This document shows, one piece after another, positions 2,491-13,351 of a DNA stretch of 14,476 bases (within the stretch, counting starts at the first letter, position 1; each line of letters starts with the position of its first letter). Source of the DNA: an uncultured Planctomycetaceae bacterium (GTDB taxonomy: Bacteria; Planctomycetota; Planctomycetia; Pirellulales; Pirellulaceae); the NCBI GenBank assembly GCA_903927685.1, contig CAIYOB010001178.1:1-14476 (forward strand), written 5' to 3'. The position numbers and the translations under genes are program-made. The notes beneath the pieces are model-generated. The model was given only the letters and a program-made list of their open reading frames with translations, was not told the origin of the DNA and searched no databases.

Positions 2491-2660
2491 CGGAACGGAG
2501 TTTTTGGGGCGAATCTGAATCCAAACGTCCTCGCCCGGCGAATCCTCCCTAGAGCCTTTCACTGCGCTTGGTCAATTCCTGAAACATCAGGCCGCGCGGG
2601 CCGGTTGGTGCCGACCTGCGACCGAGCTTAATCTCGCCCCTGCTCCCGGAGGATGAATCG

Positions 2661-3302
2661 ATGTCGAAAGTGGTTTTCCTGAGTCTGTCGTTTGCGTTGC
2701 TTGTCGCCGCCTTGTCCAGTCGCTCACCGGCGGCTGACACCTCGACGCCCAGTGGCGAATCGGGAGACGGCGCGGGTTTCAAGCCCCTGGTCGAGGCGCC
2801 GATGCCGGAGGGGTTTCCCGCTTACACACCCGTCGGGCAGATCGAGGTGAAGAAATACCCGGCGTACCGCAAGGCCGAAACTCGCGGCCGCACCGCCTTC
2901 TGGACGCTGTTTCAGCACATCACCACGTCCGGAATCTCGATGACTGCCCCGGTCGAGATGACTTTCGAGGCGGATGGGCCACCGGTGGGTCGCGAGCAGG
3001 CGATGGCCTTTCTGTATGGCGACCAGAGCCTCGGCAGCGCCGGAAAGAAGGGCGATGTGGAGGTGACGGACGTGCCGCCCGCCACGGTTGTCTGCCTTGG
3101 CATGCGAGGCCAGCGGACGGAACAGGCGGTTGTTCAGGCGGAGCACCGACTGCGAGATTGGCTGAACCAGAACAAGGATCGTTACGAACAGTGCGGGCCG
3201 GTGCGGATCATGGGCTACAATAGTCCCTTTGTGGCTCGCGACCGGCAGTTCTATGAGGTGCAGATTCCCATTCGTGAGTCGGCGGCCAAGGCATCCGCAT
3301 GA
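2661..3302 (+). CDS. Exported SOUL-family haem-binding protein
   Basis: A 213-residue protein with an N-terminal signal peptide: a hydrophobic core at about 4-19 and a likely cleavage after Ala25 (SPAA|D). The mature part shows SOUL/HBP family landmarks: KKYPAYRKAE at about 64-73, the FWTLFQHI helix, ISMTAPVEM at 92-100 (family signature), a central AFLYG strand, and GYNSPFV...FYEVQIPI near the C-terminus. SOUL proteins bind haem or related tetrapyrroles. Bacterial members are poorly understood and some may not bind haem. The ATG is supported by a strong Shine-Dalgarno (CGGAGGA, 2647-2653) 7 bases upstream. A second ATG overlaps at 2653 but is out of frame. The signal peptide implies periplasmic location, and no lipobox cysteine is visible. 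It lies 138 bases upstream of the sigma factor gene. Confidence 0.88.
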   Translation: MSKVVFLSLSFALLVAALSSRSPAADTSTPSGESGDGAGFKPLVEAPMPEGFPAYTPVGQIEVKKYPAYRKAETRGRTAFWTLFQHITTSGISMTAPVEMTFEADGPPVGREQAMAFLYGDQSLGSAGKKGDVEVTDVPPATVVCLGMRGQRTEQAVVQAEHRLRDWLNQNKDRYEQCGPVRIMGYNSPFVARDRQFYEVQIPIRESAAKASA

Positions 3303-3344: not shown

Positions 3345-3373
3345 TTGACACGTTTCGCCTGTGGCACTAGGCT
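3345..3373 (+). promoter_or_regulatory. Putative sigma-70-like promoter of the sigma factor/B12 gene pair
   Basis: A perfect -35 TTGACA (3345-3350) is followed by exactly 17 bases and TAGGCT (3368-3373), which keeps the three most conserved -10 positions (T, A and final T). It points at the sigma factor gene and would give a leader of about 60 bases to the GTG at 3441. The hexamer also forms a TTG codon that could be mistaken for the start of a longer sigma-factor frame. Confidence 0.55.
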
Positions 3374-3440
3374 GGCGGCGCGAACACGGAGCCTAAGATT
3401 CGGCTCCCGGGTCTGCGTCATAGTTCCGCAGGGCGATTTC

Positions 3441-3995
3441 GTGTCTCTCACCATCCTCCAGCGAATTGCGGCCGGCGATGCTCAGGCGGTGAACGAATGC
3501 CTGGATCAGTACGGGAATCTGATCTGGTCGCTCGCCCGACGCCATTCGCCCGGTCACGCCGATGCGGAAGATGCCGTTCAAGAGACGCTGCTGGAGATTT
3601 GGCGCAGTGCCTCGCGGTTTGACCCGCAGTTGGCGTCCGAGGCGGCCTTTATCGCCACCATCGCCAAGCGGCGGCTGATCGATCGGCACCGCAAACGCAG
3701 TCGAACCATTGACGCGGCGCCGCTGGACGACGAGCCGGCGCGGGTTGCCGAGTCTGGCACACAGGCTCTCGAGCTTCAGGAGGAGGCCGAACGGGTTCGC
3801 GTCGTGATGGGACGCTTGCGTGCCGACGAGCGGCGAGTGCTCGAACTGTCGCTCGTCAACGGCTTGACCCACCATGAGATTTCCTCTGCCACCGAACTCC
3901 CGTTAGGGACTGTCAAAACCCACGCCCGCCGCGGCCTGAATCGTCTGCGCGAGCTGCTGGGAGCAACGCCCGACTCTTCGTCTGGGGACCCTTGA
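3441..3995 (+). CDS. ECF-type sigma-70 family RNA polymerase sigma factor
   Basis: A 184-residue sigma factor with only regions 2 and 4, as in extracytoplasmic-function (ECF) sigmas that redirect RNA polymerase to a small regulon. Region 2 spans about 14-83 and holds the core-binding and -10 recognition signature DAEDAVQETLLEIWRS at 41-56. Region 4 spans about 118-172 with a helix-turn-helix at 141-167 (GLTHHEIS...LPLGTVKTHARRGL). The frame is open back to TTG at 3345, but that codon is the -35 hexamer of a good promoter. The extra 32 residues are also unlike sigma factors. GTG at 3441 has AGGG at 3430-3433 and begins with the expected SLTILQRIAAGD helix, so I chose it. Only 3 bases separate its stop from the B12-binding protein gene, which implies co-transcription. 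No zinc-type anti-sigma gene lies next to it. The ECF subgroup cannot be assigned from sequence alone. Confidence 0.9.
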   Translation: MSLTILQRIAAGDAQAVNECLDQYGNLIWSLARRHSPGHADAEDAVQETLLEIWRSASRFDPQLASEAAFIATIAKRRLIDRHRKRSRTIDAAPLDDEPARVAESGTQALELQEEAERVRVVMGRLRADERRVLELSLVNGLTHHEISSATELPLGTVKTHARRGLNRLRELLGATPDSSSGDP

Positions 3996-3998
3996 ACC

Positions 3999-5069
3999 AT
4001 GAACCATCCGGACTCGATTTCCGCGGCCATGCTTCGCAGCACCGCCCCCGGCCTGGCGGGTTATGCGGCGAGCGATCTACTGCAGTCGCGGCCGGACTTG
4101 AAGCCGATGCTGGCGAGTCAGGCCTTTGCAAGCTGGCAGGTCGTGCTGCGTGATTGCCTGGAAGAACTTGCGGCGGCCCTGTCGGCGGACCGCCCGCAGT
4201 TCTTCGCGGGATACCTCGGTTGGCTGCAGAGCATGCTGACCGCCCGCGGCGTCCCGCCTGACGCCGTGCCGTTCGCTGTCACCTGCCTTGCCAACGTGGT
4301 GGAGACGGAATTGCCGGCCGAGTCGGGGGCGCGCGTGGCGGGCGTGCTGCGGCAGGCCCTGGGTGACCTGGAACGGAACCTGAACCAGGCTTCCGGCTTC
4401 CTCCAGACGGACACGCCTCACGGCCGCCTGGCCGCCCAGTTCCTGTTGGCGTTGTTGGAAGGCGACCGGGCCCAAGCCAGTCGCTTGGTCCTGGACGCCG
4501 CCCGAGAGGGCGCAGCCATCGAAGATCTTTATCTCCAGGTGCTGCTGCCCGTCCAGCAGGAAGTCGGACGGATGTGGCAGGCCGACGAGATCAACGTCGC
4601 CGAGGGGCATTTCGCAACGGCCACGACGAGCAGCATCCTGGCGCAACTGCGTCTGCGGGCGCCTCAGCGGGAGGGCAACGGCAAGACGGTGATGGCCGCC
4701 GCCGTTGCCGGAAATCGGCATGACCTCGGCGTGCAGATGGTCGGGGATTTCTTCGAGCTGGCCGGATGGCGCGTGATTCAACTCGGTCCGGACATGCCGA
4801 TTCCGGATTTGGCTCAAGCCGTGGAGTTCTACCAACCGGACCTGCTCGCCCTGTCCGTCGCTCTGCATACCCAACTGGTCACGCTGGCCGAGACGATCCG
4901 AGTCGTACGGGGCGGCCAGCGGGGGGCGAAAATCAAAATCCTGGTGGGCGGCCGCGGGTTAGCCGAGGCCGCGGACCTGGTCCCGCAGTTCGGCGCCGAC
5001 GCCTACGCCGCTGACCCGCAAGCCGCTGTTGCCTGGGGCAACTCGCTGGCGGTGGAAACCGGAACGTAG
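3999..5069 (+). CDS. Cobalamin (B12)-binding regulator with no DNA-binding domain, paired with an ECF sigma factor
   Basis: A 356-residue soluble protein. Residues about 1-130 form a helical N-terminal domain that I cannot name. Residues about 140-220 read as the four-helix cap of methionine synthase and CarH-type proteins. W193 and the VAEGH segment (200-204) correspond to the CarH Trp-x9-Glu-His pattern that covers the upper face of adenosylcobalamin; the Glu is Gly203 here and His204 is kept. Residues about 228-350 are the Rossmann-like B12 domain. NRHDLG at 239-244 aligns with DxHxxG, so His241 is the likely lower cobalt ligand. SVAL at 286-289 and LVGGRG at 315-320 complete the pattern. 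There is no MerR or other DNA-binding domain, no methyltransferase domain and no membrane span. It follows the sigma factor gene by 3 bases, with GGGGA at 3984-3988 as a ribosome site. Family knowledge suggests light or cobalamin sensing; control of the adjacent sigma factor is my inference. A corrinoid carrier protein is the alternative. Confidence 0.85.
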   Translation: MNHPDSISAAMLRSTAPGLAGYAASDLLQSRPDLKPMLASQAFASWQVVLRDCLEELAAALSADRPQFFAGYLGWLQSMLTARGVPPDAVPFAVTCLANVVETELPAESGARVAGVLRQALGDLERNLNQASGFLQTDTPHGRLAAQFLLALLEGDRAQASRLVLDAAREGAAIEDLYLQVLLPVQQEVGRMWQADEINVAEGHFATATTSSILAQLRLRAPQREGNGKTVMAAAVAGNRHDLGVQMVGDFFELAGWRVIQLGPDMPIPDLAQAVEFYQPDLLALSVALHTQLVTLAETIRVVRGGQRGAKIKILVGGRGLAEAADLVPQFGADAYAADPQAAVAWGNSLAVETGT

Positions 5070-5071
5070 CA

Positions 5072-5099
5072 AGGCTGCGAGCCCGCACTGGGCTTGCCT
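5072..5099. terminator. Possible shared hairpin terminator between convergent genes
   Basis: The 29 bases between the B12 protein stop and the convergent hypothetical gene's stop contain a nested inverted repeat. The inner stem is AGCCC (5080-5084)/GGGCT (5090-5094) with a 5-base loop, and the outer arms are AGGC (5072-5075)/GCCT (5096-5099). Location between convergent stops suits a bidirectional terminator, but neither side has a T run, so intrinsic termination is uncertain. Confidence 0.35.
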
Positions 5100-6046
5100 C
5101 AGGCCAGGACCTTGACCCACAGGCTGAAGCCGCCGCGGCGTGTGAAGGCGTCCAGCATATCGTAGTTGACTTGCACATAGATGTCGTGGCGCGGGTCCAG
5201 GTCGACCACGTCGGGTGCCATCCGGTCCTCCGACGCCAAGACCGTCCGCCGGGCCAGGTCTCCCTGCCAGACGATCAGGGCCGCCTCCGGGGAATTCCGA
5301 AACAGCCAGCCGTCCTGCGCCGCGGTGAGGTGTCCCCGGACGCGGCGCACCAGTCGCGGCTGATCACTCCCATGCCACCAGCCGACGTCAAAGGCGGAAA
5401 CGGCCAGCAGTGAAGCGCGCAGGGGCCGGTCGCCCAGCAGCAAGCGATTGCCAAAGACCTGGTTGTCAACGGACAGGTTGCGATACTCGAGCCACCCCTC
5501 TTCGCCGCCGGCGGGCGGGAACTCGACCGCTAGGAACCCGACGGACGCGGGAGACCGTCCAGCCGACTCCAACTGGGCGGCCGCCGGCTCGGCTGCCAGC
5601 GCGGCCGCGGGGCACTGCTGGACGTAGACGCCGCGGAAGGACGAACTCGCGGTATCGCTCTGGTAGGTCGTGGGGGGATACGTCGAGTAGTCGTACCAAA
5701 AGGCTTTGGCGTACAAGGTGTTGTTCGGGGTGGTCGAGCCGGCGGGGGCGATCCAGGCCCCCAGTGACGGCATGGAGCCGGAGGGCCAGCTGCCGTCAGC
5801 GGCCAGCCCGACCATCTGGGCGGAACCCCAATCCGCCGACGTCGGCGCGGGATCCCCAGGCCTCTTGATGATCAACCGGGCGATACCGGGCAGTCCCTGC
5901 ACGGGCGGCGTGAAGCGACCACTCGCGCGGCAGAGCGTTCCCATCGGGGCCTGTGGCGAATAGGATCTGACCGGTCCATCGCCTCCCGGGGGAGGGATGT
6001 TCACGCTCAGGATGCTGGCCGGACTGCTATTGGCTGACTTGTCCAT
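5099..6046 (-). CDS. Hypothetical protein, overlapping and probably co-translated with the upstream kinase
   Basis: A 315-residue protein I do not recognise. There is no signal peptide, membrane span or known catalytic motif. The N-terminal 80 residues are rich in Pro, Ser and Gly. The rest alternates hydrophobic and aromatic residues as in a beta-rich fold, with notable segments AKAFWYDYSTYPPTTYQSD (about 113-131), GWLEYRNLSVDNQVFGNRLL (about 183-202) and a C-terminal DIYVQVNY...FSLWVKVL. Its ATG (6044-6046) lies inside the end of the kinase gene, giving a 20-base overlap. An AAGGA ribosome site (minus strand, 6054-6058) sits 7 bases upstream within kinase coding sequence. This arrangement strongly suggests co-expression, so it may be a substrate, partner or effector of the kinase, but that is inference. 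Confidence 0.72.
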   Translation of the reverse strand: MDKSANSSPASILSVNIPPPGGDGPVRSYSPQAPMGTLCRASGRFTPPVQGLPGIARLIIKRPGDPAPTSADWGSAQMVGLAADGSWPSGSMPSLGAWIAPAGSTTPNNTLYAKAFWYDYSTYPPTTYQSDTASSSFRGVYVQQCPAAALAAEPAAAQLESAGRSPASVGFLAVEFPPAGGEEGWLEYRNLSVDNQVFGNRLLLGDRPLRASLLAVSAFDVGWWHGSDQPRLVRRVRGHLTAAQDGWLFRNSPEAALIVWQGDLARRTVLASEDRMAPDVVDLDPRHDIYVQVNYDMLDAFTRRGGFSLWVKVLA

Positions 6047-7931
6047 GGCGGGTTCCTTGATTCTCTAGTCGAAAACGAACATCACGAAACACGGTTGAAC
6101 CTTGTTCACCGATAACGCCGAAACGGCCGGCGCCTGTCGTAGGACTGACGGGAGCTGCGGCAGCGTCCTGGATGATCTTGTTCAAACGGACCCCGCGGAA
6201 TTCGGCGGAGATCATCCGGCCGCGCCGGACGCGGACTTGCAGCACATTGTCCACCAACGGCGGCAGGACAACCTGTTCTGAGGTCAGCATCGCGCGGTAG
6301 ATGTCAGGGCGCGCAACGAGCGCGGACGGCGTGAAGGTGAAATGGCCGAAATGAACCCAGGTCTCCGTTCCCTGAAGGCCCGGAAAGGCGACCACTGTGA
6401 GCACTTCGCATTCCGTCTCGCCGCTGCCGTCGTTCCGTTCCTGATGCCCCCAGAACAAGCCGCTGTTGCCAGCCCAAGCCGACTTGGCGATCGTGACCTG
6501 CAGCTGAAAATCCTCGGCGGCTGTCTGCCCCACTTCCAACAGGCCGATATCGGGATGATCCAGCAGGACTTCCTGAACGTCGGGATTGTAGAGCCATCGC
6601 GCCGTGTTCCAGTAGCGCGGAAAAACCAGCTCGCGGGGCGTCTGGTCCAGCAACGGGTACCACCGTCCCGGAGGCACGAACTGGTCCAGTTCCCAATTGG
6701 TCCGCAAGGGGAGCCGCTCGCGCCGTTCGCCCGATATCGACAGCAGCCACAGCCCCGGGCCGAACAGGCCGGCAAGTACGAGCAGGCCCAGGCCGAGCAG
6801 CGCCCAGGCTTTGCCTCGCCCCGCCGGCTCGGACGCCCGTTCCGGCGCGGCGGCAACCGGCGGCGCCGGAACCTGCGGCGAAAGACTTGCCGTGGGCTCG
6901 CTCGTCCGGAGCCATTTTCCCAGATCCTCGGCCAGATCAAACGCGGACGCAAAACGCTCGGCCACGGGCTTGCGAAGGCACCGCAGGCAGGCGTCCTCCA
7001 GCGCGTGCGGAATGCTCTCGTCGATCTGCCTGGGCGGACGCGGGGGCCGATTCAGGATCTCCTCCGGCAGCAACTGCCGATCGCCTTGAAAGGGCAGACG
7101 GCCGGTCAACAGCCGATACAGGATCACCCCCAGGCTCCAGACATCCGTCCGCCCGTCCAGCCACTGGACCTCGCGCCGGATCTGTTCGGGAGCCATGTAA
7201 TGCAGCGTCCCGGCGAACTCGCCCGCGTGACGAGCCTGCAAGTCCTCCCGCACCGCCAGGCCGAAGTCCGCGACATACGGTTCGCCGTTGGCGTCCAGCA
7301 GAATGTTGTTGGGCTTGAGATCCCGGTGGAAGTACTGACGCCGGTGCGCATGGTGGATTGCCAAGGCCACCTTGCGGAGCATCTCGACGCCCGCACGCAA
7401 CGGGATCCGCTCGGATCGGATCCGCGTGTCCAGTGAGCCGCCTTCCAGGTACTGCATCACGATGTAGTCCAGCCCGGTCGAGTCCCGGTCGATCCGGTAG
7501 ACTTTGACGATGTTCGGATGTTCGAGGCTGGCGATCGTGCGGGCTTCCTGCAGCAGGCCGGCCAAGGCCGCATCCGAGCGGAAGCGGTCGGCTCTGGGGA
7601 TCTTGATCGCGACCTGCCGGTTCAATTCCGGTTCGCTCGCCAGATACACGCGTCCGAATCCCCCCTCCCCCAAGATCCGAAGAATCTGGTAATTGCCCAG
7701 ATTCAAGGGGATGGCCACCGTTTCCGTCTCGGCGGTTGGCTCCTCGCCGGGCCGGGCCCGCTCCGGGTTCGCGGCAGCGTCCGCGTCGGCAGGCGGGTGC
7801 CCAATGTCCTTGCCGGCAGGCGGGTGCCATGTGCTGAGGAAGATCGCCAACCCGCACCGCGAGCACGTGGCTTGTTCGGTCGGTTGAGTCACCGCCGTCT
7901 CGGATTTGCATTTGGGACAGACAATCAACAT
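6027..7931 (-). CDS. Membrane-anchored Ser/Thr protein kinase with N-terminal zinc ribbon and extracytoplasmic C-terminal domain
   Basis: A 634-residue Hanks-type kinase that phosphorylates Ser/Thr on proteins. Counting from the chosen ATG at 7929-7931, a zinc ribbon is formed by CPKC (5-8) and CSRC (23-26). A Pro/Ala-rich linker leads to a complete kinase domain at about 80-340: glycine loop GEGGFGRV (88-95), VAIK (Lys110), helix-C Glu129, HRDLKPNN (202-209), DFG (222-224) and APE (247-249), all catalytic residues intact. A single membrane helix lies at about 374-399 (nt 6735-6812). The remaining about 235 residues should be outside the cytoplasm and resemble a jelly-roll/DUF1080-like domain (GNSGLFWG, FRDVRF near the end). 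The frame is open to an ATG at 7994. I prefer 7931 because the ribbon follows at once (MLIVCPKC), as in planctomycete kinases, but the ribosome site is weak for both. The downstream gene overlaps its last 20 bases. Confidence 0.92.
   Translation of the reverse strand: MLIVCPKCKSETAVTQPTEQATCSRCGLAIFLSTWHPPAGKDIGHPPADADAAANPERARPGEEPTAETETVAIPLNLGNYQILRILGEGGFGRVYLASEPELNRQVAIKIPRADRFRSDAALAGLLQEARTIASLEHPNIVKVYRIDRDSTGLDYIVMQYLEGGSLDTRIRSERIPLRAGVEMLRKVALAIHHAHRRQYFHRDLKPNNILLDANGEPYVADFGLAVREDLQARHAGEFAGTLHYMAPEQIRREVQWLDGRTDVWSLGVILYRLLTGRLPFQGDRQLLPEEILNRPPRPPRQIDESIPHALEDACLRCLRKPVAERFASAFDLAEDLGKWLRTSEPTASLSPQVPAPPVAAAPERASEPAGRGKAWALLGLGLLVLAGLFGPGLWLLSISGERRERLPLRTNWELDQFVPPGRWYPLLDQTPRELVFPRYWNTARWLYNPDVQEVLLDHPDIGLLEVGQTAAEDFQLQVTIAKSAWAGNSGLFWGHQERNDGSGETECEVLTVVAFPGLQGTETWVHFGHFTFTPSALVARPDIYRAMLTSEQVVLPPLVDNVLQVRVRRGRMISAEFRGVRLNKIIQDAAAAPVSPTTGAGRFGVIGEQGSTVFRDVRFRLENQGTRHGQVSQ
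7788..7828 (-). repeat. Short in-frame direct repeat in the kinase linker
   Basis: A 14-base unit GGCAGGCGGGTGCC (plus-strand reading) occurs at 7788-7801 and 7815-7828, a 27-base period. In the kinase frame this encodes two HPPA(G/D) motifs nine residues apart in the linker between the zinc ribbon and the kinase domain. It looks like a small in-frame duplication and has no clear function. Confidence 0.6.
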
Positions 7932-8021
7932 CTGCACCGCCCCGCCAGGATGAGAGCATCCCCCGCAGCCGGACGCTCCAGGAACGTTGCGCACGCACCG
8001 GCAACCCGATTGGACCGTCCC

Positions 8022-9211: not shown

Positions 9212-12200
9212 CTATTGAGCGCGGGACAGGTTTCCCAAGCTCCCGGGAGCCTGGCTGGTTGGGTAACCGCAGGCGCGCAGCAACGCCCGTCGCGTAGAGA
9301 ACTCGGGGTAGTCTCGGGCCAGTTCCCGCAGGGTCTGCCGCAGCGCGGGATCGGCCAGTTGGCCTAACGCCTCGGCGGCGGCGTGCCGCACGTCCGTGGC
9401 GTTGTTCAGTTCGCGGACGACTTCGAGCAACCGATCCGTCGCGCGGCGGTCGCCGATCCGGCCCAGCGCCCAGGCCGCGGTCGCGCGCCAACACGGCGTG
9501 TACTCCAACTGCAGGAAGTGGATGTTCGGCTCCGCCGGGTCAGGACGGCCGTGGCGGGCTTCATGCAATTCGGCGGCCAATGACGCCAGCAGCGTGTCCA
9601 CCGAGCGCGGATCGCCCAAGTTGCCCAGCGCCCGGCCCAGGTAGAACAGCACCCAATGCCGCTGCGGGATCCAGGTGGGATTACCCAGCGGACGACTGAT
9701 CGGGTCCTCGGGCAACGCTCGATACCGCTCATAGGCCGCCCGGACGCGCGGCTCGTAAACCGCGTCACGGCACAGCAGCGACAGGATCTGCGCGGCGCGG
9801 TTGTCTGCCGCGGGCGTGCCGGCCCAGGCCGCAAACGTGGTGCTGACCGCCTGTTTCAAGTCGTCCGCCGCCTGTGCCTGCGGATCGCCCAACAGGGCCA
9901 GGCAGGCTTCGACCAACTCCGCGCCGCGCCCGCTGCGGGCGAGCACTCGCCCGGCGAGGAGTTCGTAGTCGTCGTTGGCGGGGAACAAGGCCCGGTCGGG
10001 GTCGGTGGGCACGCTGCGAATCACGTGCGGGACGATGCTCGCCGTACGGGTCGACCCGAGGCGATCGAGGGCTGCCAGGATTCGGGCGTGCAGTGGTGAG
10101 GCGTGGCAGGCGTACAAGGCTGGATGGTCGCTGTACCAGCCGACGTAGTCCCAGTACTCTCGCAACTTGCCAAACGTCTCGATCAACGCCGTTTCCGCTT
10201 CCGGCGTCCCGATCCGCCCCAGCGCCTCGATGGCCGCTTCGACCAGGTACAGGTTGCCGGTCTTCGGATCGGTGTGGCTGGCCAGAATACCGGCCAGCAG
10301 CGGCACGGCGGCCGTGTCGTTCAGGTGCCCCAGCGCCCGGGTTGCCTCCTGCAGCGTCCGCGGATTCAGCGGCGAATCGGCGGGAAACGTGAAACTGTCG
10401 GTGCGATTGGCGTTCTCGAAGGGCGGATAGGGATTGCGGTCCTTTTCCCGGGCCACGAAGTCACGGAGCGCCGCCCGGCCCGCGTCGCCGCCCACGTGCC
10501 CCAAGGCGACCAGCGCGCGGCGGGATGCGACGCGGTCGTCGCCTGTAATACGTTCGAGCAGCGCTCGTTCGATCGCGTCCCACGAGTTGGCTTGGAACCA
10601 GGCTCGCCAGGCGTCGGCCTGCGGTTGACGCGCGTCCACCGAGGCGAATGGCTGGAACGGTTCCGCATGGCCCGTCAGGTTCTCGATTGCGACCGCCGCT
10701 GCCTGGGCCACAACAGCATCCCGATCGGACAAGGCATCCAGCAACGGCGGCACACTGTCCCGTGTCCCGCAGGCCGACAGGGCCAGGGCGGCGGCGACCC
10801 GGACCTCGCGACTGCTGTCCCGCAGGCACTCGGCCAACGCGGGGGCCGCGGACCGGTCCCGAAACAGGCTCAATCGCTGACAGGCCGCGATCTTCGTCGC
10901 TTCGGCCGCGTCCGGCGAAACGGTCAGGACCGCCGTGGGCCGGATCGGCGCCGACGGGGCTTCGCCTCGGCCGAGGCTGTCCCGGCCTCCCTGCAGTCGC
11001 TCGATCAACGCTGCGATCTGTTGCCGGCCGGTGGCCAGCGGATCGCCGCTGACGGCGTGCAGGTTCAGTGACGCCGTTTCGCGAAACCGCTCGAACTGCA
11101 GGTCCATCATGCCCGTCACGCCCGAGTTGTTGCCGCGAAAGCGGTGCGTTTCACCTTGCCCCAGCAGTTTTAGCGGCCGGGTTTGCATCGCCTGAGACAG
11201 GCGGATCTCCGCGGGCGGCGAGGCCGTACGTCCGGCGTGGCAGCCGACGCACGAGCGGCGCTCGCCGGGCCGCACGTAGATCCACGACATCTCGTTCAAC
11301 TCCGACCGTCCCTCGGCGTCTACGGCTTGCAGCGCCAACGGCACGTCGGCGGGCACTTCGACGTAGAACGAACCATCGGGCGCCAGCGGCACCGTGCCCA
11401 GTTCGACCGTTTCGTGGCCCGCGTGCACGATGTGCGAGTGGGACGAACGCGTGGTCAGTGCCTTGGCGGCCAGCACGCGGACGGCTCGGATCTGGTCCCA
11501 ATCGGCCTTGATCTTGCGCGTGAATCGGACGTTCTGGCAGTACAGGAACCCCGTGGCCGCCGGATTGCCCGGAGTGCCCAGCCGCTCGCGATCCACGATG
11601 TCGGCCAGCACGGGCGGACGCGGCTGGGCGCCGACGAAGATCGGCGAATGAACAGAGCCCTCGGGCGATTCGAAGATCGGCGTGACGGCCCCGTCGCGCG
11701 GATCGATCACGGCGATCACGTCCGAGTGCATCTGCCGCGCGTCCGGCCGCAGGATTGTGGCCAGCAGCCTCCCGTCGGGCAGCGGAGCCAAGTCGCCCAG
11801 GCCATTGGGCAGGCGTTGGAACGACGGCTCGCGGCCTCCGGAAGAGCAGACGAAATTCCCGCGGCTCGAAATGCAGGCCAGCTTGCCGTCTGGCAGCGGC
11901 GCCGGACTGCCGTAGCCCAATGCTCGCAGCCGCACCCCGTAATCCGCGCCGACGTCGGCGCCGACCTCGGTATGCCCGTCCGTCCCATCCGGGCGAATGG
12001 CGTGGATCTGCGTCTCGACCTTGGCGCGGTCGAAGAAGTTGTCCGTGCGGATGAACGCGATCCGGCCGTCGGCCATGACCTTGGGCTCGTTGTCGAAAAT
12101 CGGCGTGAACGTGACCGGCTCGATCTCACGCCCGTCGCTCTGCATGACGAACAAGGCCCGCGACGGCGGATTGTGGTATTCCTCGAAGCTGCCGATGCGT

Positions 12201-13351
12201 GTCGAGGTGAACACGATCCGCCCGTCGGGCAATTCGGCCGGATCGATATCGTGGAACGGCCCTGCGGTCAGCCGCACTGGCGGCCCACCGTCCAGGGGCA
12301 CGCGGTAGATGTGGAAAAAGGCATCGCCGTTCAGGGCCATCGCCGCGTACAAGGAACGACCATCGTAGCTGGCGGCCGGCGAACCGATGGCTCCGGTGCC
12401 CGCGTCGACCAGCAACTGGGGCGTTGCGTCCGGATCGGCGACCCTCAACAGGTATAGCTTGCGGCCGATCTTGGCCGGGCAGGGGATGTCGAACTCGGTG
12501 TAGGCTCGCGACCAGCTGTCGACCCGGAAGCACACCCCCCAGGCATCGCCGCGCAACGGCACGTACACGCTGCAGTCGTCGCCGACGTAGGCAATCGCCT
12601 CGGGCCAGCGGAAGTCCTCGCCGGGCTCCGTCAATGCCACGCGGGTCTGAAACATGCCCGGCCGTGACGATCCGTCGGGAGACCAGCTGAGCGCTCCCCA
12701 GGGCGCCATGCCCAGCGGCCCCACGACGGTCGCCTGCGACCACCCCGGGGGCTCGACGTACTCCGGGTGGGAATAATCCACCGGTTCGGCCTCGGCTGCC
12801 ACCCGCCACGAGGCATCGGTCACAAACTCCAGCGGCGGCTGGTCCGGGACTTCGACCCGCACGGCGGCCACGACCGCCCGGATCCCGCCCAAGTCGCCGC
12901 CGCGGATCCCGATCACGTTGCGGCCTCGCGCCAGACGCGTGGTAATGTCGTAACGCTCGACGGAACTCCAGACCTCGCCGCCAGCGCCCACGTCGTACCC
13001 GACGGCAGCCCCGTTGATGTACAGTTCGTAGTTGTTGTCCGCCGTGATCAGTACGCTGGCCGCCGTCGGCTTGTCCGCCAGCGTGAAGACGTGACGCAGC
13101 TGGCAGACATCCTGCTCCGGCGCCCCCCAGATCCAGGACGCGTTGGCCAGCGGTGGCAGCGTTCCGATCGGCTTCTGTTCCGCGGACTTGGCTGCGGCAT
13201 CCCGCTTCAGCACCGGTCGGCGGCCCTCGGCCGCGACCCACGGCGGGACGATCAGCATCGCGATCAAAGCGGCCGGCACGAGGCGAATGCAGCCGCCATG
13301 ACGAAATCCTGCGTCGGGTCGGTTTTCGCGGACAGAAGTCGCAGCCGCCAT
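9212..13351 (-). CDS. Giant exported protein: hydrazine-synthase-alpha-like middle domain with one CxxCH haem site plus HEAT repeats
   Basis: A 1379-residue protein. A signal peptide is likely (hydrophobic 24-38, cleavage near Ala40-Ala41). Residues about 70-240 form a beta-sandwich, lectin-like region (ITADNNYELYINGAAVG). Residues about 290-575 contain repeated blades with DG motifs (PAELPDGRIVFTS, APLPDGKLACISS, APLPDGRLLA), a TolB/PD40-like propeller. Residues about 578-707 match the hydrazine synthase alpha middle domain, ending in PGERRSCVGCH: Cys701, Cys704 and His705 form a c-type haem site (nt 11237-11251). From about 815 to 1355 there are HEAT-type helical repeats (AALALSACGTRDSVPPLLDA, ATAAWALGRIGDRRATDRLL and others). 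True hydrazine synthase belongs to anammox bacteria, and this fusion is not evidence of anammox metabolism: similar domain mixes are common in planctomycetes with unknown function. The ATG at 13349-13351 has a ribosome site AAAGGA (13360-13365) 8 bases upstream. It is the first gene of an operon with the TIM-barrel protein. Confidence 0.88.
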   Translation of the reverse strand: MAAATSVRENRPDAGFRHGGCIRLVPAALIAMLIVPPWVAAEGRRPVLKRDAAAKSAEQKPIGTLPPLANASWIWGAPEQDVCQLRHVFTLADKPTAASVLITADNNYELYINGAAVGYDVGAGGEVWSSVERYDITTRLARGRNVIGIRGGDLGGIRAVVAAVRVEVPDQPPLEFVTDASWRVAAEAEPVDYSHPEYVEPPGWSQATVVGPLGMAPWGALSWSPDGSSRPGMFQTRVALTEPGEDFRWPEAIAYVGDDCSVYVPLRGDAWGVCFRVDSWSRAYTEFDIPCPAKIGRKLYLLRVADPDATPQLLVDAGTGAIGSPAASYDGRSLYAAMALNGDAFFHIYRVPLDGGPPVRLTAGPFHDIDPAELPDGRIVFTSTRIGSFEEYHNPPSRALFVMQSDGREIEPVTFTPIFDNEPKVMADGRIAFIRTDNFFDRAKVETQIHAIRPDGTDGHTEVGADVGADYGVRLRALGYGSPAPLPDGKLACISSRGNFVCSSGGREPSFQRLPNGLGDLAPLPDGRLLATILRPDARQMHSDVIAVIDPRDGAVTPIFESPEGSVHSPIFVGAQPRPPVLADIVDRERLGTPGNPAATGFLYCQNVRFTRKIKADWDQIRAVRVLAAKALTTRSSHSHIVHAGHETVELGTVPLAPDGSFYVEVPADVPLALQAVDAEGRSELNEMSWIYVRPGERRSCVGCHAGRTASPPAEIRLSQAMQTRPLKLLGQGETHRFRGNNSGVTGMMDLQFERFRETASLNLHAVSGDPLATGRQQIAALIERLQGGRDSLGRGEAPSAPIRPTAVLTVSPDAAEATKIAACQRLSLFRDRSAAPALAECLRDSSREVRVAAALALSACGTRDSVPPLLDALSDRDAVVAQAAAVAIENLTGHAEPFQPFASVDARQPQADAWRAWFQANSWDAIERALLERITGDDRVASRRALVALGHVGGDAGRAALRDFVAREKDRNPYPPFENANRTDSFTFPADSPLNPRTLQEATRALGHLNDTAAVPLLAGILASHTDPKTGNLYLVEAAIEALGRIGTPEAETALIETFGKLREYWDYVGWYSDHPALYACHASPLHARILAALDRLGSTRTASIVPHVIRSVPTDPDRALFPANDDYELLAGRVLARSGRGAELVEACLALLGDPQAQAADDLKQAVSTTFAAWAGTPAADNRAAQILSLLCRDAVYEPRVRAAYERYRALPEDPISRPLGNPTWIPQRHWVLFYLGRALGNLGDPRSVDTLLASLAAELHEARHGRPDPAEPNIHFLQLEYTPCWRATAAWALGRIGDRRATDRLLEVVRELNNATDVRHAAAEALGQLADPALRQTLRELARDYPEFSTRRALLRACGYPTSQAPGSLGNLSRAQ

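Follow-up and report, generated by a model that had tools for sequence, protein, structure and literature searches.

What controls an extracytoplasmic function (ECF) sigma factor when the gene in its anti-sigma position encodes a cobalamin-binding protein? The question is raised by positions 3,345 to 5,069 of a 14,476-nucleotide stretch of DNA from an uncultured Planctomycetaceae bacterium (NCBI GenBank assembly GCA_903927685.1, contig CAIYOB010001178.1), referred to here at its full length as the window. The original prediction, made from the sequence alone, held that the cobalamin (B12) protein controls the sigma factor directly. Our analysis leads us to favour, with moderate confidence, a SigK-like sigma factor whose membrane anti-sigma factor, RskA in sister loci, has given way to a globin-B12 protein that is predicted to be cytoplasmic and would be gated by adenosylcobalamin (AdoCbl) or light. 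The locus is thus read as most likely an AdoCbl/light-responsive sigma switch, built from the following genes and domains:

3441..3995, forward strand: SigK/RpoE-like ECF sigma factor gene (GTG start; TTG at 3345 is an alternative start)
3999..5069, forward strand: globin-B12 protein of photocobilin architecture, 356 aa, in the anti-sigma position
4005..4376, forward strand: its N-terminal helical (photoglobin-like) domain, residues 3-126 (profile match, and helices in the model)
4431..4649, forward strand: its B12-binding_2 four-helix domain (PF02607, 4.3e-15; GxxW at residues 190-193; EH motif present as G203-H204)
4686..5024, forward strand: its B12-binding Rossmann domain (PF02310, 7.1e-16; GNRHDLG at 238-244, GPDMP at 263-267)

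The sigma factor and its anti-sigma slot

The sigma factor matches Sigma70_r2 (1.8e-18) and Sigma70_r4_2 (1.4e-10) in Pfam and has regions 2 and 4 only, as expected of the ECF family. Its top NCBIfam model is SigK (PRK09646), at 110.6 bits against a cut-off of 226, and we therefore call it SigK-like only; among PDB entries RpoE (2q1z/2z2s) matches first and SigK second. The open reading frame (ORF) runs in frame from TTG 3345 to the stop at 3995, GTG 3441 being the more likely start since the alignment of relatives begins there. The DAED motif, described as a contact to core polymerase (PMC8103513), is intact, so the protein should be active unless restrained. Three bases separate its stop codon from the ATG of the B12 protein at 3999 (TGA ACC ATG). 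Pfam matches and ORF coordinates thus agree with the predicted arrangement of a two-region sigma gene followed after 3 bases by a B12 protein, which is also, as had been claimed, free of any DNA-binding domain among its Pfam matches.

The pairing recurs in other planctomycetes. Profile searches at E<=1e-60 (thresholds here are our own choice) found the globin-B12 family in 12 of 397 genomes of the class and in 13 of 199 and 14 of 119 genomes of two families, amounting by handle count to 35 distinct genomes; in G454 the locus is cut by a contig end. Of these genomes, 17 have, upstream of the B12 gene and in the same orientation, a sigma gene close to that of the window (phmmer E 4e-54 or better); together with the window they make up the 18 paired loci analysed below. 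The converse search with the sigma factor (E<=1e-50) in the 119-genome family returned exactly the same 14 genomes. Among the 120 homologues listed for each of the two protein searches, 13 pairs agree in the length of their longest contig (hand count), an indirect sign of shared contigs. The adjacency that the original prediction expected of planctomycete genomes is therefore conserved.

The sigma family extends beyond that of the B12 protein: at E<=1e-45 it is present in 53 of the 199 genomes of the family of G001 and in 65 of the 397 class genomes. Its other members show what fills the slot elsewhere. We fetched 12 unpaired sister loci and tested the next gene in ten of them, leaving out L083 and L084. 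All ten matched RskA_C, nine above the Pfam cut-off and L077 just below it (27.7 vs 29.4). In the paired loci the next gene is the globin-B12 protein, and RskA_C was found in none of the 17 paired genomes, in a search that matched 2 of 14 named control genomes and whose sensitivity for planctomycete RskA, like the completeness of the genomes, is not established. Given these two results, the slot of RskA is taken by the globin-B12 protein, and RskA seems to be missing wherever this is so. On a tree of 30 sigma factors the partner label needs 2 changes, compared with a shuffled mean of 9.6. No other regulator was found among the ORFs common to the 18 paired loci, several of which have short flanks. 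In one genome, G444, a sigma-RskA pair (L076) coexists with a globin-B12 gene (L021) that stands alone and is not linked to it.

The globin-B12 protein and its chromophore sites

The prediction of a B12-binding protein held for the two B12 domains, which are present in 66 of 66 family members; its picture of a bare B12 protein did not, as it missed the N-terminal globin domain. A profile search aligns residues 50-103 with the bilin globin of the photocobilin SasPcob (independent E-value 1.8e-7). Pfam Phycobilisome is matched weakly by 4 of 66 closer members (best 0.012) and at 5.4e-5 by L017, a kinase-fused relative. The globin kinship of the domain, which is suggested by these sequence profiles, would give the protein photocobilin architecture by its fused globin domain, in reversed order with the globin N-terminal. 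A fold comparison, limited to the B12 half (model residues 138-355) probably because of this reversal, gave photocobilins as the top three matches by Z, with superposition at 1.6 Å. The MerR DNA-binding domain that defines CarH/LitR has no Pfam match, the N-terminal part being globin-like, which bears out the earlier view that the design differs from CarH.

A contig search with patterns drawn from a single sequence found one relative, a Candidatus Anammoximicrobium metagenome-assembled genome (family Pirellulaceae) that is 65% identical in the B12 protein; the window probably belongs to the same planctomycete order. Five of six scanned distant relatives (L010, L011, L014, L017 and L029) have the globin-B12 module fused to a HisKA-HATPase-receiver histidine kinase; these planctomycete fusions are putative B12-type sensor kinases. 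L012, L013 and L028 are similar in length to the kinase-fused relatives.

The two chromophore sites have fared differently. For AdoCbl we scored the light-signature motifs under the names GxxW, EH, GxxH and GxxxP (PMC11796333), which are kept in 18, 17, 17 and 18 of the 18 sigma-paired members, respectively. The bilin motif of photoglobins is given as CXQD (PMC10151467). Its Cys position is Trp in all 18 paired members, and the bilin-site Asp (Asp270 of SasPcob) is found in none of them, with Val, Leu, Trp or Cys instead. The pattern C-x-[QEK]-D, read by eye, occurs in 6 of 22 sigma-less relatives (L009, L015, L016, L017, L026 and L027) and in none of the 18 paired members. Haem oxygenase PF01126 was found in none of 23 genomes (17 paired and 6 with the standalone gene; other haem-degrading families were not searched); of 12 genomes that carry the other relatives, 2 have it. 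With the site lost and PF01126 not found, we judge bilin co-sensing unlikely in the sigma-paired group. Because the bilin site is not kept, we avoid the name photocobilin for the product and speak of a globin-B12 protein of photocobilin architecture.

What such a protein would sense needs weighing, as AerR/AppA-like B12 or SCHIC proteins partly sense cobalamin supply or redox. The globin-B12 protein could control the sigma factor in the same sense, responding to cobalamin supply or to redox state (cob(II)alamin, oxygen) and not to light. We consider this unlikely, given that the four AdoCbl light motifs survive in nearly all paired members and that photocobilins head the fold comparison.

A shared promoter motif and its candidate targets

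If the globin-B12 protein gates the sigma factor, the genes served by that sigma factor should hint at the signal. The features in question lie upstream of the pair:

2517..2543, forward strand: GAATCC-N16-CGAAT, a promoter motif of ECF type, 117 bases upstream of the start codon of SOUL
2661..3302, forward strand: SOUL haem-binding-family protein, putative regulon member (PF04832, 1.2e-12)
3345..3373, forward strand: TTGACA-N17-TAGGCT, exact string, putative promoter of doubtful function

Recurrent neighbours were collected from an all-against-all comparison of the 18 paired loci, with Pfam names taken from one member each. They are fasciclin (12 loci), SOUL (9, with the window), an NmrA/DUF2867 short-chain dehydrogenase/reductase (SDR; 5), a flavin adenine dinucleotide (FAD) amine-oxidase-like protein (4), cyclopropane-fatty-acid synthase (3), a phosphoenolpyruvate-utilising enzyme (3) and glutathione peroxidase (2). 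The motif GAAWCC-N16-CGAAY occurs 23 times in these loci at spacer 16, compared with 0-4 times for ten other spacers; with spacers 15-17 pooled, there are 26 matches vs 2.8 expected. In its relaxed form it lies upstream of 12 of 12 fasciclin (FAS1) and 8 of 9 SOUL genes, and in its strict form of 9 of 12 and 5 of 9, counts which are not independent because the motif was found on those regions. For the ninth SOUL gene (L054), a strict copy stands 42 bases ahead of a start codon that lies further on. The window has a single strict match, which also fits the extended pattern exactly (2516-2543; 0.01 expected by shuffles). This copy at 2517-2543 is likely a target promoter of the sigma factor, and possibly an autoregulatory one.

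Across the 17 genomes there are 44 strict matches, 16 of them on sigma contigs; a control pattern shortened by two bases gave 25, none on sigma contigs, and the reversed pattern 4. Thirty matches were fetched, and 15 precede a gene of the fasciclin, SOUL, FAD or peroxidase type (similarity by eye): 13 of 14 on sigma contigs vs 2 of 16 elsewhere, the latter being a fasciclin gene in G001 (L104) and an FAD oxidoreductase gene in G044 (L101). In three of the 12 sister RskA loci a fasciclin gene bearing this motif lies upstream of the sigma gene, and one of the three also has a SOUL gene (by eye). Since these three sister loci carry the same motif, at least part of the regulon appears to be shared under a different controller.

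The promoter first proposed for the operon was a different one, TTGACA-N17-TAGGCT. As a string it is exact at 3345-3373 (0.01 expected by shuffles), with the alternative TTG start at 3345 falling inside its -35 box, but it is not a conserved promoter and we rejected it as such. The only near copy, ATTGAC-N18-TAGGCT, is in L042, and L047, which is as close, has no visible copy. It is also not among the calls of the scan program's sigma-70 rule. At the same spacing, the fasciclin genes of L050 and L052 have their coding 3' end and stop, which makes a relic or a coincidence possible. We therefore regard the string as real and its promoter function as doubtful; the promoter that relatives have in common is GAAWCC-N16-CGAAY, which in the window stands before SOUL.

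A candidate switch and its known relatives

How might the locus work? In the dark, the globin-B12 protein with AdoCbl bound would hold the sigma factor off RNA polymerase. Light breaking the Co-C bond, or loss of AdoCbl, would change its oligomeric state and thereby free the sigma factor, which would then transcribe from GAAWCC-N16-CGAAY. Its targets would be SOUL in the window, perhaps together with the sigma operon itself, and in relatives additionally the genes for fasciclin, glutathione peroxidase and an FAD oxidoreductase. We infer that the globin-B12 protein restrains the sigma factor, and that Co-C photolysis or AdoCbl loss releases it, because a sigma factor with DAED should be active unless held and no other regulator is shared. 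Direct binding, its sign and the direction of exchange are likewise inferred. Light, as opposed to B12 or redox, is suggested as the signal by the kept motifs, the kinship with photoreceptors and the photo-oxidative flavour of the regulon. More tentatively, and with less than even confidence, we propose that an AdoCbl-based, light-gated anti-sigma factor took over the role of RskA, coupling light directly to a photo-oxidative-stress regulon of fasciclin, SOUL, peroxidase and flavin oxidoreductase and discarding the bilin of its photocobilin kin. No title or abstract in the literature searched describes the pairing of a sigma factor and a globin-B12 protein, though an earlier mention in Schneider et al. 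2022 is possible; that photoglobin study reportedly surveyed gene neighbourhoods.

Several observations weigh against the exchange of RskA for a light-gated globin-B12 protein. First, in 17 of 34 assessable genomes the B12 family was seen without such a sigma gene in the fetched flank (<=1.5 kb, shorter where contigs end); these are all more distant members, and the split follows relatedness, with paired members at 2.1e-118 or better and unpaired ones at 3.5e-108 or worse. Measured from the sigma stop to the tblastn start, the two genes are at most 8 bases apart in 8 of 18 loci and 44-173 apart in 5, while in another 5 the gap reaches 292-500 bases. The 30-sigma tree leaves the root, and hence the direction of exchange, unset. 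Second, the window copy is the one paired member without the Glu of EH (Gly203-His204), a change shared with its seven nearest relatives (P0002-P0008) that may alter adenosyl contacts; P0046 and P0111 also have Gly at this position (residue 203 of P0001). Loss of the bilin site in the paired group also counts against light as the signal, or at least complicates it; the habitats are not known to receive light. Third, where 1.8 motif matches are expected, the 35 control loci hold 8, and 4 of these stand in sister loci in front of a fasciclin or SOUL gene. With the starts we chose, the motif is absent upstream of 4 of 4 SDR genes, so that SDR/DUF2867 is not supported as a motif-driven target, and of 3 of 4 FAD genes, the count with motif being 1 of 4 in relaxed and strict form alike. 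Off sigma contigs the strict motif and the spacer control are about equally frequent (28 vs 25), so the majority of the distant matches may be chance; a genome-wide regulon is not supported. Lastly, when sigma factor and B12 protein were modelled as one read-through chain (AlphaFold), the predicted template modelling score (pTM) was 0.63 and sigma region 2 was poorly folded (per-residue confidence, pLDDT, mostly 51-71), so that no interface is supported by the model.

The failure of this fused model to give an interface would also suit a globin-B12 protein that activates or stabilises the sigma factor, or works with an unseen anti-sigma factor, and RskA itself is described as able to activate as well as inhibit SigK (PMC7509140). 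We hold this to be less probable again than a cobalamin or redox sensor: the shared ORFs offer no second regulator (several flanks being short), RskA_C is missing from the paired genomes, and the intact DAED implies a sigma factor active unless held back (PMC8103513).

A role of the B12 protein as subunit of a corrinoid methyltransferase, or as part of another co-regulated enzyme, with operon membership as its only link to the sigma gene, is highly improbable. Its best NCBIfam match is MtgC-like, public names include MtbC1, and the fourth fold match by Z is a monomethylamine corrinoid protein (24.4). The NCBIfam score is, however, far below cut-off (81 vs 370 bits), as are the scores for corrinoid proteins of the MtaC/MtbC/MtgC type, and no corrinoid methyltransferase is among the identified neighbours (not every neighbour was scanned). 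The globin domain and photocobilin match, the RskA slot and the kinase fusions of distant relatives also argue against this reading.

The remaining features of the window lie downstream of the pair:

5099-6046, reverse strand: 315-aa ORF, no Pfam match at E 0.1
6027-7994, reverse strand: Ser/Thr protein kinase (Pkinase 5.2e-48; weak N-terminal zinc-ribbon match)
9212-13351, reverse strand: 1379-aa protein; repeat-type matches to phycobilin lyase models, far below cut-off

Although ECF-kinase pairs are known (PMC8103513), regulation of the sigma factor through phosphorylation by this kinase, with the B12 protein incidental, is scarcely credible and was rejected, the kinase being convergent, about 1 kb away and unmatched (1e-12) in the 17 other paired loci (some with short flanks), while the sigma factor keeps DAED. 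Hydrazine synthase alpha (NF052339) is also matched weakly by the 1379-aa protein, at 1.7e-7 and far below cut-off. An Rfam scan of the window gave nothing at gathering score.

Among known systems, photocobilins (SasPcob, 8J2W/8J2X, and AbDPcob; PMC10979010) share with the window protein the B12-binding and photoglobin domains and most of the AdoCbl motifs, and their groups are described as carrying the AdoCbl domain at the N- or C-terminus. The window protein differs in its N-terminal globin, its lost bilin residues, the change of EH to GH and an output that is likely a separate ECF sigma factor. CarH/LitR has in common the AdoCbl domain with GxxW, GxxH and GxxxP; the window protein lacks the MerR DNA-binding domain and would act through a sigma factor. 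In AerR/PpaA the partner is PpsR/CrtJ, whereas here it would be an ECF sigma factor, and the globin domain is extra.

RpoE-ChrR of Rhodobacter sphaeroides resembles the paired loci in its sigma factor and in an overlapping regulon, with the B12 protein of the window in place of ChrR, a zinc-binding cupin-type anti-sigma factor. A fasciclin protein, cfaS and an SDR are among the members of the RpoE regulon (PMC7074977, Table 1), and ChrR is degraded upon singlet oxygen (PMC7074977); by analogy, the regulon proposed here resembles this photo-oxidative-stress regulon. If our reading is correct, a ligand-gated and possibly light-gated class would be added to the anti-sigma factors, and one sigma factor, one sensor and one short promoter would make a compact optogenetic part.

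SigK-RskA, of mycobacteria and others, is another close system: the window sigma factor is nearest to SigK and RpoE, sister planctomycete sigma factors carry RskA, and in the paired loci the globin-B12 protein stands in the RskA position. The SigK promoter presumably reads CCATCC/CCGAAT, and the mycobacterial sigK locus probably includes cyclopropane-synthase and FAD genes. The signal of SigK-RskA has been described as unknown or obscure (PMC7509140, PMC9861118). MPT70 and MPT83 are reported to be SigK-regulated, and their M. kansasii homologues, fasciclin-domain proteins, to rise 3- and 6-fold in light (PMC9861118). If one lineage has swapped the sensor and kept promoter and targets, light or photo-oxidative stress would become a leading candidate signal for the SigK-type regulon, in keeping with this light induction, and the AdoCbl/light-responsive variant would make the SigK signal testable.
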